This document shows, one piece after another, positions 4,257-41,896 of a DNA stretch of 46,407 nucleotides. The translations under genes and the position numbers were made by a program. The notes below the pieces were generated by a model. The model was not told the DNA's origin. It saw only the letters and a list, made by a program, of their open reading frames with translations, and did no database searches. Numbering within the stretch: the stretch's first letter is position 1; each line of letters starts with the position of its first letter. The DNA is from Parcubacteria group bacterium (lineage in GTDB: Bacteria; Patescibacteriota; Patescibacteriia; UBA1558; GWA2-36-10), in NCBI GenBank assembly GCA_003104935.1, contig PQAE01000011.1:1-46407 (forward strand). The letters are read 5' to 3'.

Positions 4257-4321
4257 ATGGTGGACTATATCCCGCCACGGCGGGATGACCTCCGCGTTGC
4301 CTGCCCGCCATTGTCATCGGC
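4257..4321. repeat. Palindromic repeat between tRNA-Val and tRNA-Ala
   Basis: A TCCCGCC/GGCGGGA inverted repeat lies near 4270-4285. It is the same type of GC palindrome as at 4680-4696. A second GC-rich half (GCCTGCCCGCC) follows. No gene is present. Confidence 0.6.
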
Positions 4322-4397
4322 TGGTGGAGATAGCCGGACTTGAACCGGCGACCTTCTGCTTGCAAAGCAGGTGCTCTACCAATTGAGCTATATCCCC
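4322..4397 (-). tRNA. tRNA-Ala (anticodon TGC), CCA encoded
   Basis: The acceptor GGGGATA pairs with TATCTCC and includes the G3:U70 wobble pair that alanyl-tRNA synthetase recognises. The anticodon loop is TTTGCAA, and the D- and T-arms are regular. The outermost anticodon-stem pair (27-43) is C-A. CCA is encoded at 4322-4324. Confidence 0.95.
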
Positions 4398-4431
4398 GAC
4401 AGGCGATGGCAGGCGGGCAAACGCGGCGCTC

Positions 4432-4472
4432 CCTGCCTACCGGCAGGCAGGTACCAACTAAGCTAACAGCCC
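4432..4472 (-). pseudogene. tRNA 5' fragment joined to a palindrome
   Basis: On the minus strand the sequence starts like a tRNA, GGGCTGTTAGCTTAGTTGG (acceptor and D-arm). It then stops at the end of the D-arm and runs straight into a palindrome (CCTGCC/GGCAGG, 4432-4451). No matching 3' half (needing ACAGCCC) is found nearby. It is read as a broken tRNA gene. Confidence 0.5.
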
Positions 4473-4604: not shown

Positions 4605-4725
4605 GTAACTACACGCCCGCCAAAGGCGCGGCGTAGATACCAATTTTATTATTTGTCATCATTTTTTTGGAAGCGGTCATCCCGCCAAAGGCGGGACGCG
4701 TCTACCAAGTTTCGCCATTCGCCCT
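4605..4725 (-). pseudogene. Two tRNA-Leu-like 5' fragments, each ending in a palindrome
   Basis: The minus strand at 4725-4697 reads GGGCGAATGGCGAAACTTGG then TAGACGCG, which is the 5' half of a leucine-type tRNA. It is cut off by the palindrome TCCCGCC/GGCGGGA (4680-4696). Further along, at about 4651-4638, AAAATTGGTATCTACGCC looks like another D-arm remnant and meets a palindrome at 4609-4637 (CTAC...GTAG with a GCCAAAGGC centre). Neither has a 3' half. Confidence 0.45.
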
Positions 4726-10552: not shown

Positions 10553-10617
10553 GAATTATAGCAAGTTATTTTCTCCCCCAATCAACATGGCCTTTGGCTA
10601 AATTGACCAACCGCCTG

Positions 10618-10660
10618 TCCCGAGCGCAGTCGAGGGAAGCTATGGGCGCGAATTTATAAA
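10618..10660 (-). repeat. Duplicated tRNA-Lys 5' end joined to a palindrome
   Basis: On the minus strand the leader and first 12 bases of tRNA-Lys (leader AATTCGC and GCGCCCATAGCT) are repeated at 10658-10638. They then switch abruptly into the palindrome TCCCTCGACTGCGCTCGGGA (10618-10637). The real tRNA-Lys starts at 10552 with the same leader. Confidence 0.7.
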
Positions 10661-34623: not shown

Positions 34624-34652
34624 TTGACTTACCCGCGGTTTTTTAGTATGCT
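34624..34652 (+). promoter_or_regulatory. Promoter of the tRNA-Arg region
   Basis: TTGACT (34624-34629) and TATGCT (34647-34652) are 17 bases apart, about 22 bases before the first tRNA half. Confidence 0.6.
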
Positions 34653-34708
34653 ATGCTGTGTTTATTATATTGCGTCCCGGTAGTTCAATGGATAGAATAG
34701 GAGCCTTC

Positions 34709-34762
34709 CCCCGCAAAATAAACGAGCGAAGCGAGAACCTATAAAAGAGGGTCCCGCAACAC
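34709..34762 (+). repeat. Left arm of the insertion in tRNA-Arg
   Basis: This segment begins CCCCGCAAAAT, contains CGAGCGAAGCGAGAACC, and ends near GAGGGTCCCGCA. Its start is an inverted copy of the right arm end (ATTTGCGGGA, 34908-34917), and its end (GAGGGTCCCGCA) is roughly inverted to GTGCGGGGTCCTC at 34863-34875. Confidence 0.6.
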
Positions 34763-34775
34763 TAAAGTATTTTAC

Positions 34776-34851
34776 GCGCCCATAGCTCAATGGATAGAGC
34801 AACAGCCTTCTAAGCTGTAGGCTGCACGTTCGAGTCGTGCTGGGCGCACCA
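34776..34851 (+). tRNA. tRNA-Arg (anticodon TCT), intact, CCA encoded
   Basis: The acceptor GCGCCCA pairs with TGGGCGC, the anticodon stem ACAGC pairs with GCTGT around loop CTTCTAA, and the T-loop is TTCGAGT. CCA is encoded at 34849-34851. This functional-looking gene lies inside the interrupted tRNA-Arg of the same anticodon. Confidence 0.95.
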
Positions 34852-34859
34852 AATAGCAA

Positions 34860-34917
34860 TATGTGCGGGGTCCTCGCAAATATAAGTACTCGCTATAGCT
34901 CGTACACATTTGCGGGA
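34860..34917 (+). repeat. Right arm of the insertion in tRNA-Arg
   Basis: The segment holds GTGCGGGGTCCTCGCAAAT, then GTACTCGCTATAGCTCGTAC (itself a palindrome-like block), then ATTTGCGGGA. CGCAAAT and ATTTGCG form an outer stem. It is related in inverted orientation to the left arm. Confidence 0.6.
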
Positions 34918-34969
34918 TAAGCTCTAGATTCAGGTTCCCCCGGACTACGATCCGGGGCTGGCCGGGGCA

Positions 34970-34997
34970 CCATCCTGCGCCTGCGGGCTTCGGATGG
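34970..34997. repeat. Palindrome directly after the interrupted tRNA-Arg
   Basis: CCATCC and GGATGG enclose a GC-rich core; the first arm shares its CCA with the tRNA 3' end. It resembles the palindrome at 4064-4094 (ATCC...GGAT with a GC core). Confidence 0.6.
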
Positions 34998-35034: not shown

Positions 35035-35109
35035 GGTGGCTATAGTTTAGCGGTAGAACAGCGGGTTGTGGTCCCGCTGGCCTGGGTTCGACTCCCAGTA
35101 GCCACCCCA
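35035..35109 (+). tRNA. tRNA-His (anticodon GTG), CCA encoded
   Basis: The extra G at position -1 (35035) pairs with C73, the mark of tRNA-His. The acceptor GTGGCTA pairs with TAGCCAC, the anticodon loop is TTGTGGT, and CCA is at 35107-35109. The 3' end of the serine recombinase gene lies within this tRNA on the other strand, which identifies it as the likely integration site. Confidence 0.95.
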
Positions 35110-40024: not shown

Positions 40025-40095
40025 TATAAATAATTAACAATTTAATTGCCTAACCCTCGTAAAGTAAAATTCCGAGGTATGGCATAAAACTCCCA

Positions 40096-40212
40096 ACCAC
40101 GATAGTAAGCTCCTCATTGAGCACTCGTGGTTGGGTCAGTGGCCGAAAGGTTATTGGGTGGCCCGAAAGGGTTGCCGCTCGTGGGGGGCTTTCTGTTTCC
40201 ACGAGCACTAAA
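40096..40212 (+). ncRNA. Structured leader before the type III methylase gene
   Basis: Four hairpins follow one another: CCCAACCACGA with TCGTGGTTGGG (about 40102-40135), CAGTGGCC-GAAA-GGTTATTG, GGTGGCCC-GAAA-GGGTTGCC, and GCTCGTGG...CCACGAGC (about 40176-40208). Two have GAAA tetraloops, typical of folded RNA. A further CCCAACCAC stands next to the mod start (40214-40222) and can pair with the GTGGTTGGG of the first hairpin. This offers a switch between two folds. It is not a known riboswitch that I recognise. Confidence 0.5.
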
Positions 40213-40225
40213 TCCCAACCACAAA

Positions 40226-41896
40226 ATGTCAAACAATCAACCAACACAAAATCTACTTAAGGAAGTTGAAAATCTTAAAGATGAAATAAAACAGCTCAAA
40301 TCACGAAAGCGATATGGGCTTGTTTGGGAAGAAAAGCCAGAACAGGTAGTTGAATTATGCAAAGAAAAGTTGCCTGTTTTAGCCGAGGACAGAGAAAGAG
40401 AAATCAAATCTGACGGCGACAAGCCAGTAAATATTCTTATTGAGGGAGATAATTACCACGCTCTCTCTGTTTTGAATTACACCCACGAAAAAAAGATTGA
40501 TGTAATTTATATTGACCCACCGTATAACACGGGTGCTAAGGATTGGAAATACAACAATAATTTTGTAGATATAAACGATTTATGGCGACACAGCAAATGG
40601 CTTTCAATGATGAAAAATCGCCTTGTATTAGCAAAGAAACTTCTTAAACAAGATGGAGTTCTTATCTGTTCTATTGATGAAAATGAACAGGCACATCTTG
40701 GCGTGCTTTTAGAAGAACTATTCCAAAACCACGAAATACATTGCATTACAATCGTGCATAACCCACGAGGAGTGCAGGGCAAAAACTTTTCATATTCTCA
40801 CGAGTATACCTTTTTTGTTTTTAGAAAAGGTGTGGAAGTTATTGGAAGTAAACAGCGTGAGGAGGTGTTAGAAGAAGAGTTGAGAGACCACGGCGGCGAG
40901 TCATTAAGAACTGACGCCAAAAATTGCTTCTATCCAATTTTGGTTAAAAACGATAGCATTGTTGGTTTCGGCGATGTCCCACTTAAAAATTTTCATCCAA
41001 ATGGTAAAAATGTTCAAAGAAAAGATAAAACGATTGAAGTTTGGCCTATTGATGTGAGGGGTGTTGAAAGGAAGTGGGTATTTGCACGCAATACGGTTGA
41101 AGAAATTAAAAACAAGTTATTTGTTGCTAAAAAGAAAAATGGCCAGATTGATATTTTCCGCCGAAAGGATACTCAAAAACCAAGAACTGTTTGGATAGGA
41201 AAAAAATATGATGCAAGCACTTTCGGTTCAAAGATAGTTAATGGCTTAACAGGAACTCTATTTCCATTCCCGAAATCCTTATACAACACAAAAGATTGTC
41301 TTGAGTGTGTTGTAAAACAGAGAAAAAAAGCTGTTGTTCTAGATTATTTTGCTGGTTCTGGCACAACTGGCCACGCAGTAGCTTTATTAAATAAAGAGGA
41401 TAACGGCAATCGTCAATTCATTCTTTGCACAAACAACGAAAACGGAATTGCTCAAGATATTTGTTATCCAAGAATTAAAGCGGTTATTAAAGGAAATAAA
41501 GAATATAAAGATATTACGGGCATAACAAGTAATCTAAAATACTTCAGAACGGATTTTGTTGATGGTGCAACAACCGATAAAAATAAGAAAAAGCTCGTTG
41601 ATAAGTCAACAGAAATGCTCTGTCTGAAAGAGGATTGTTTTGAGAAAGTGAAAACGGGCAGGCATTTTGATATGTTCAAAAATCCCAAAGGGAAATATCT
41701 GGGAATAATTTATGACGATAATGGAATTGAAAACTTCAAGAAAGAGGTAAAAAAGCTCAACAAGAATTTTGTTGTTTATGTTTTCTCGCTTGATGATAGT
41801 GCGAGAGAAGAAGAGTTTGAGGATATGAAAAACCTCGTTGAATTAAAGCCAATTCCTGCGGTCATATTAAATGTTTATAAACGTATATTCAAATGA
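40226..41896 (+). CDS. mod: Type III restriction-modification system, DNA methyltransferase (Mod)
   Basis: Mod recognises the target sequence and methylates adenine (N6) using S-adenosylmethionine. The 556-residue protein has the catalytic DPPYNTG at about residues 96-102 and the SAM-binding VLDYFAGSGTTGHAV at about 371-385, the beta-class order of type III Mod enzymes. The region between is the target-recognition domain. The start at 40226 is chosen because the 33 upstream codons only translate the hairpin leader. Its stop overlaps the res start as ATGA. Confidence 0.93.
   Translation: MSNNQPTQNLLKEVENLKDEIKQLKSRKRYGLVWEEKPEQVVELCKEKLPVLAEDREREIKSDGDKPVNILIEGDNYHALSVLNYTHEKKIDVIYIDPPYNTGAKDWKYNNNFVDINDLWRHSKWLSMMKNRLVLAKKLLKQDGVLICSIDENEQAHLGVLLEELFQNHEIHCITIVHNPRGVQGKNFSYSHEYTFFVFRKGVEVIGSKQREEVLEEELRDHGGESLRTDAKNCFYPILVKNDSIVGFGDVPLKNFHPNGKNVQRKDKTIEVWPIDVRGVERKWVFARNTVEEIKNKLFVAKKKNGQIDIFRRKDTQKPRTVWIGKKYDASTFGSKIVNGLTGTLFPFPKSLYNTKDCLECVVKQRKKAVVLDYFAGSGTTGHAVALLNKEDNGNRQFILCTNNENGIAQDICYPRIKAVIKGNKEYKDITGITSNLKYFRTDFVDGATTDKNKKKLVDKSTEMLCLKEDCFEKVKTGRHFDMFKNPKGKYLGIIYDDNGIENFKKEVKKLNKNFVVYVFSLDDSAREEEFEDMKNLVELKPIPAVILNVYKRIFK

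Follow-up and report, generated by a model that had tools for sequence, protein, structure and literature searches.

How one tRNA gene comes to lie whole inside another of the same anticodon, and which of the two the cell relies on, is the question raised by a locus in the small genome of a Parcubacteria group bacterium (GCA_003104935.1, here G000). The window analyzed is the whole 46,407-nt stretch of contig PQAE01000011.1. In it, a 209-bp insert separates the halves of an outer tRNA-Arg(TCT), entering between anticodon positions C35 and T36 (35^36). A first-pass annotation had described a tRNA-Arg(TCT) split by an insert carrying a second, intact tRNA-Arg(TCT), and the description was confirmed with exact coordinates, an ARAGORN prediction, and a 74-bit match to Rfam RF00005.

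Anatomy of the split tRNA-Arg(TCT) and its ancestral site

The locus comprises the following features:

34624..34652 (+), promoter-like site TTGACT-17-TATGCT preceding the outer 5′ half (9/12 matches; ~0.9 expected by chance)
34674..34708 (+), 5′ half (positions 1–35) of the outer, ancestral tRNA-Arg(TCT), counterpart of the intact gene adjoining tRNA-His in relatives
34709..34775 (+), left arm of the cassette, 67 nt, inverted repeat with 34852–34917; G028 has a related sequence at the same site
34776..34851 (+), inner tRNA-Arg(TCT), intact, 76 nt (ARAGORN; RF00005, 74 bits)
34852..34917 (+), right arm of the cassette, 66 nt, inverted repeat with 34709–34775
34918..34972 (+), 3′ half of the outer tRNA-Arg(TCT), position 36 through CCA, T-loop damaged
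34938..34957 (+), 20-bp palindrome in the T-loop of the outer gene, not present in relatives
34970..34997 (+), palindrome overlapping the CCA end (CCATCC...GGATGG)
35036..35109 (+), tRNA-His(GTG), conserved downstream neighbor that serves as synteny anchor

The insert consists of two arms and a tRNA, its core is not repeated at both ends, it occurs as a single copy in G000, and no target-site duplication accompanies it. The arms constitute one long imperfect inverted repeat over nearly the whole of the 67/66-nt flanks, with an alignment score of 39 versus 21 for the best of 2000 shuffles (0/1000 shuffles reached it); the inverted ends reported in the first-pass annotation are present but form just the tip of this repeat. 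The insert folds with z = -8.1 and, because the arms pair over such a length, host and insert together fold into a single long hairpin capped by the inner tRNA (z -7.5 and -8.1). The outer halves do form seven acceptor and five anticodon pairs, as had been proposed, although not all are perfect: pair 2–71 is T-G and one anticodon pair is G-T. The other two palindromes noted at first were located at 34938–34957 in the T-loop and at 34970–34997 at the CCA end. The T-loop of relatives reads GGTTCGATTCC, without the palindrome. When the outer halves were rejoined in silico, ARAGORN recognized no tRNA because of the T-loop palindrome, and the outer gene is therefore a broken remnant.

In relatives from the same family, tRNA-Arg(TCT) has no interruption and lies directly upstream of tRNA-His, as the outer gene does here, providing the empty site that the first-pass annotation had suggested looking for and indicating insertion into the ancestral tRNA-Arg(TCT). 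The outer halves match the tRNA-Arg(TCT) of G004 at 53/56 positions. The inner tRNA is a different allele, matching that of G004 at 57/76 positions and those of G008, G017, and G011, each located near tRNA-His in its genome, at 63/76; inner and outer copies within the window agree at 42/56. Since the ancestral gene is interrupted and the inner tRNA is the sole intact gene of anticodon TCT found in G000, the inserted copy has taken over. On sequence comparison, both the insertion into the resident gene and its functional replacement are well supported. The earlier supposition that the target was a redundant copy is not supported, since the broken gene corresponds to the tRNA-Arg(TCT) that relatives have at this locus and only the inserted copy was found intact. 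Between 34550 and 35150, the only promoter-like site, near chance level in frequency and weak given its 9/12 matches, lies ahead of the outer 5′ half, so the inner gene is probably transcribed from the borrowed ancestral promoter.

Nests and remnants across the genome and in other Patescibacteria

The window contains a second nest at 4258–4472 on the minus strand, in which an intact tRNA-Ala(TGC) sits at 35^36 of a broken tRNA-Ala, together with two tRNA remnants:

4452..4472 (-), outer tRNA-Ala, positions 1–21
4432..4451 (-), palindrome at 21^22 of the outer tRNA-Ala
4418..4431 (-), outer tRNA-Ala, positions 22–35
4398..4417 (-), left arm of the tRNA-Ala nest, CCCGCCTGCCATCGCCTGTC, of an arm family common to L079 and L096
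4322..4397 (-), inner tRNA-Ala(TGC), intact
4300..4321 (-), right arm of the tRNA-Ala nest, GCCGATGACAATGGCGGGCAGG
4258..4299 (-), 3′ part of the outer tRNA-Ala, its T arm replaced by a palindrome at 4269–4286
4680..4720 (-), tRNA-Leu 5′ remnant with palindrome, upstream of an intact tRNA-Leu(GAG)
10614..10649 (-), tRNA-Lys 5′ remnant with a D-arm palindrome, upstream of an intact tRNA-Lys(CTT)

The nested arrangement recurs throughout G000 and in related Patescibacteria. Reading of the genome in stretches yielded 44 tRNAs, eight of which have same-strand tRNA fragments in their own flank, versus none on the opposite strand; for the Met among these eight, the match is to a neighboring Asn remnant. 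The corresponding figures for the single-contig relative G016 are 4/47 and 0. When weaker matches and reading by eye are included, ~18/44 G000 tRNAs adjoin a broken copy of the same type, and some seven nests can be counted, these by-eye numbers being approximate: Arg(TCT), Ala(TGC), Ile(GAT), Asn(GTT), Leu(CAA), Thr(CGT), and Ala(GGC). An automatic nest finder requiring high identity recovered four of these and none on the opposite strand. In the Thr(CGT) nest (L248, C6:10400-10720, minus strand), a tRNA cassette occupies 21^22 and a double hairpin 35^36 of a host that is structurally perfect, with all stems intact. At the Thr, Cys, and Arg(CCT) loci, a plain remnant is followed by an intact copy. 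Palindromes within remnants recur at about 12^13, 21^22, 35^36, 48/49, and 55^56, which are cloverleaf loops and junctions. As a separate observation, the Thr(CGT) nest is followed by a third Thr remnant and a GIY-YIG ORF. ARAGORN found no tRNA-Tyr or tRNA-Gln(TTG) in the 12 contigs of G000, which is rated 100% complete, and a split-gene search for the tRNA-Tyr returned nothing convincing; assembly gaps or an unusual form could account for the two.

A single genome of each species was scanned for the 5′ half of a tRNA-Arg with CCC after it. The scan returned 17 stretches, of which eight (on seven contigs) are patescibacterial loci with an insertion at 35^36 and nine are not tRNA loci; the genomes compared are mostly metagenome assemblies, and outside G000 and G016 such pattern searches caught mainly Arg cases. 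An intact tRNA-Arg(TCT) occupies the insert in Komeilibacteria (L034/L090), Doudnabacteria (L079), and G072 (L096). The host is partly lost in G138 (L091) and G225 (L081), and the insert is only a hairpin in G028, L080, L086, and G204 (L099), as it is in the tRNA-Arg(TCG) of G214 (L093). Tandem units are present in G028, and L079 is a stacked nest. The right side of L096 is doubled, as expected for a nest within a nest, which is one possible reading; tandem duplication of the segment is another. In G204 (L099/L165), the hairpin at 35^36 of tRNA-Arg(TCT) measures 30 nt and both halves are whole, while another intact TCT tRNA-like match lies elsewhere in that genome. In several hairpin-only inserts at 35^36 of Thr and Arg hosts, the last two bases complement host bases 34–35 (GGCA after TG, GGGA after TC), so that the hairpin stem reaches into the anticodon, a possible hint at how the hairpins form.

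A search of 380 genomes of the phylum with one arm sequence, no tRNA being part of the pattern, gave seven places, six of which (at five loci) flank an intact tRNA-Arg sitting at a broken tRNA-Arg. In the class of G709 (49 genomes), all seven arm places belong to tRNA-Arg cassettes, most of them in the D-loop at 21^22. Cassettes carry the anticodons TCT, CCT, CCG, TCG, and GCG, and wherever the host is readable the cargo matches it. Two families (L210, L213) have TCG cassettes that closely resemble each other, a distribution that would fit horizontal spread. Five broken hosts rejoin in silico into complete tRNAs with unchanged anticodons, the junctions being CTTC or GGATA on the left and TAAG or GAG on the right, and insertion was therefore precise, without target-site duplication or loss. 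No cassette was found in 393 genomes of the class of G571, where two pattern matches lacked a tRNA. A viral mobile element was also considered and rejected, as the viral contigs searched held no tRNA cassette. At L213 (G580), a second inverted-repeat-flanked tRNA-Arg(TCG) with different arms (CCCGCCCTTTCTT / AAGAAAGGGCGGG) lies just behind the type-I cassette. Together, the empty site in relatives and recurrence in many independent contigs, including the second nest in the window, exclude a chance origin of the architecture and support the first-pass proposal that an inverted-repeat-bounded tRNA element landed in the anticodon loop.

GIY-YIG genes and competing explanations

A candidate agent is suggested by small GIY-YIG ORFs, which lie on the same strand within 400 bp of an intact tRNA in 3/9 cases in G000 (P = 0.002) and 4/8 in G016 (P = 7e-5), both relative to random places; the tRNA-linked ORFs were confirmed by Pfam, and the remaining 6/9 GIY-YIG genes of G000 are not near tRNAs. 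The order broken tRNA, GIY-YIG ORF, intact tRNA of the same type was observed at G000 Met, G016 Lys, G016 Trp, Vogelbacteria L080, G021, and G030. At G016 Trp, the 3′ half with its palindrome comes after the intact tRNA, and the unit is therefore nested. At G030, the intact tRNA that comes straight after the GIY-YIG ORF lies between arms of the type-I family, and a further arm stands ahead of the broken copy. At G021, an arm stands ahead of the broken copy, which in turn is followed by the GIY-YIG ORF; these arms join the inverted-repeat cassettes to the GIY-YIG elements, and both loci look like three stacked tRNA layers. The window's tRNA-Arg insert has no GIY-YIG ORF inside it or nearby, so its link to these genes is by comparison only.

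The reading we prefer, to which we give about even credence, is that the window cassette and its kin are ORF-less descendants of small GIY-YIG homing elements in which an intact tRNA replaces a broken one. A GIY-YIG nuclease would cut an intact tRNA gene, and recombination would copy in a unit consisting of the GIY-YIG gene and an intact tRNA of the same type, often with inverted-repeat arms. The insertion would be tolerated because the intact copy rescues the essential tRNA function. The nuclease gene would later decay, so that the tRNA stays behind amid the remains of the gene it replaced, in some cases within several such layers; the window would represent the stage at which only arms and rescue tRNA are left, apparently read from the ancestral promoter. 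Insertion in the five rejoinable hosts is precise and free of target-site duplication, as for GIY-YIG homing elements. We know of no GIY-YIG homing element that includes inverted-repeat arms or palindromes at fixed tRNA positions, and these may need another enzyme. Same-type cargo could result either from homology-driven copying or from the lethality of mismatched insertions into single-copy essential genes; the lack of mismatched nests in already broken genes favors, rather than proves, homology-driven copying.

An unlikely alternative is that the cassettes and palindromes are nonautonomous REP/IS200-like single-strand transposons, mobilized by a Y1 transposase and entering tRNA loops on the 3′ side of a short target, with the tRNA a passenger and the GIY-YIG genes incidental. 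The palindromic, inverted-repeat-bounded form without target-site duplication and the BIME-like double hairpins agree with this, as do Y1 transposase genes (PF01797) in 19/35 relatives, where Y1 is a possible source of arms and palindromes. No such gene was found in G000, however, and the arms are not dispersed (6/7 places at tRNA-Arg), cargo matches host in every readable case, and GIY-YIG genes are associated with tRNAs. Local tandem duplication of a tRNA, with one copy decayed by palindrome insertion and nests arising as secondary rearrangements, is improbable: it would account for the remnant-then-intact order at the Thr, Cys, and Arg(CCT) loci and for the tandem units of G028, yet 5′ and 3′ breakpoints meet exactly in several hosts, the five exact rejoinings having already weakened the idea, the arms are paired and common to distant lineages, and inner and outer copies are often different alleles (42/56 in the window). 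Copying of a gene with its own leader and trailer was rejected, the flanks of inner and outer copies being unlike in the Ile and Asn nests (by eye).

The other option raised in the first-pass annotation, that the outer gene is a functional interrupted tRNA whose insert is removed from the transcript and whose halves are rejoined, is very improbable. Insertions do lie in loops, arm pairing would bring the halves together, and some hosts, namely Thr(CGT) and L210, are structurally perfect; against this, the window T-loop is destroyed, hosts are decayed or half lost at many loci and in many relatives, and every nest read has an intact copy of the same type. Splicing is further made unlikely because no RtcB was found, and an archaeal-type spliced intron was rejected on the same two grounds, the joined window host being no tRNA and RtcB being absent. 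That the locus is an assembly artifact is scarcely credible: the G000 assembly is multi-contig, but the architecture recurs in independent assemblies and genera, and broken tRNA copies are also found in single-contig G016. The recurrence of the nested pattern across G000 and in many relatives suggests small selfish elements, each breaking a tRNA gene and bringing its replacement.

Relation to known elements

Several known systems share parts of this architecture. Genomic islands and phages that integrate in tRNA genes restore the gene by means of an integrase and a partial 3′ copy and leave a direct repeat. They resemble the nests in using tRNA genes as sites and in keeping tRNA function, and differ in that here the whole tRNA lies inside, with no integrase and no repeat; this class was rejected for the window insert, which is composed of two arms and a tRNA without an integrase gene or direct repeat. 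REP/BIME palindromes with their RAYT enzymes and Rickettsia palindromic elements are short, lack target-site duplications, and occupy RNA or intergenic sites. The likeness is that of short palindromes without target-site duplication; to our knowledge, neither group has tRNA cargo or a tie to fixed tRNA positions, and, for REP/BIME, G000 has no Y1 transposase. The insert also has the terminal inverted repeats of a MITE, an assignment rejected because it shows no target-site duplication and is single-copy in G000 rather than dispersed.

Group I introns can occupy the anticodon loops of bacterial tRNAs (PMC3984707), and such genes are likewise interrupted in the anticodon loop. They are self-splicing ribozymes, whereas the window insert is a tRNA plus arms; for the conserved ribozyme core of such introns, Rfam gave no group I match in the window, bearing out the first-pass judgment that the insertion is not such an intron. 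The tRNA region of phages T4/T6 has its own GIY-YIG homing endonuclease, the free-standing SegB (PMC2330249, cited within PMC13096335). As at the GIY-YIG-linked loci above, a GIY-YIG nuclease stands beside tRNA genes, and it promotes the inheritance or amplification of a segment with intact tRNA; SegB differs in that it is a phage enzyme whose action depends on homologous recombination around a cluster of tRNA genes, and no whole tRNA nested in a broken tRNA of the same type, no inverted-repeat arms, and no fixed loop sites are described for it. The rRNA genes of CPR bacteria are rich in insertions, some coding for GIY-YIG proteins and many ORF-less, with uncharacterized ones among them (PMC11270868). 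These share with the nests the bacterial group, structural RNA genes as targets, sites at the tops or bases of stem-loops, and occasional GIY-YIG genes; they differ in occupying rRNA, in having no rescue copy, and in being in many cases group I or II introns, and tRNA is unmentioned in the text consulted (PMC11270868). No description of the nested-tRNA arrangement was found in the open-licence literature.

Transfer RNA genes are usually regarded either as inherited and stable or as passive targets that integrases restore. Homing and insertion elements in RNA genes are known; what is unexpected is the cargo strategy, a full tRNA nested in its broken predecessor. In many lineages, and repeatedly, an entire tRNA gene seems to have been ousted by an invading copy of itself. 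A broader proposal, which we hold tentatively and somewhat doubt, is that Patescibacteria host minimal selfish elements whose targets are essential single-copy tRNA genes, entered at fixed loop positions, and whose cargo is a complete rescue tRNA of the same identity, that serial invasions produce Russian-doll loci and continual turnover of the tRNA set, and that the most reduced form (two arms and a tRNA, about 110–210 bp) is still mobilized in trans. If true, each invasion would make the element's own tRNA indispensable, a selfish strategy of addiction-by-replacement that would explain tRNA-set turnover in tiny genomes; a cassette mobile by itself would constitute a new class. The linked GIY-YIG enzymes are predicted to cleave intact tRNA genes within the D-, anticodon-, or T-loop and to spare nested alleles. 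For annotation, nested loci deserve caution, as tRNA finders show them as a single normal tRNA. Elsewhere in the window, a LOOT RNA (RF03000, 80 bits) at 40047–40176 (+) overlaps the listed start of ORF 40127–41896.
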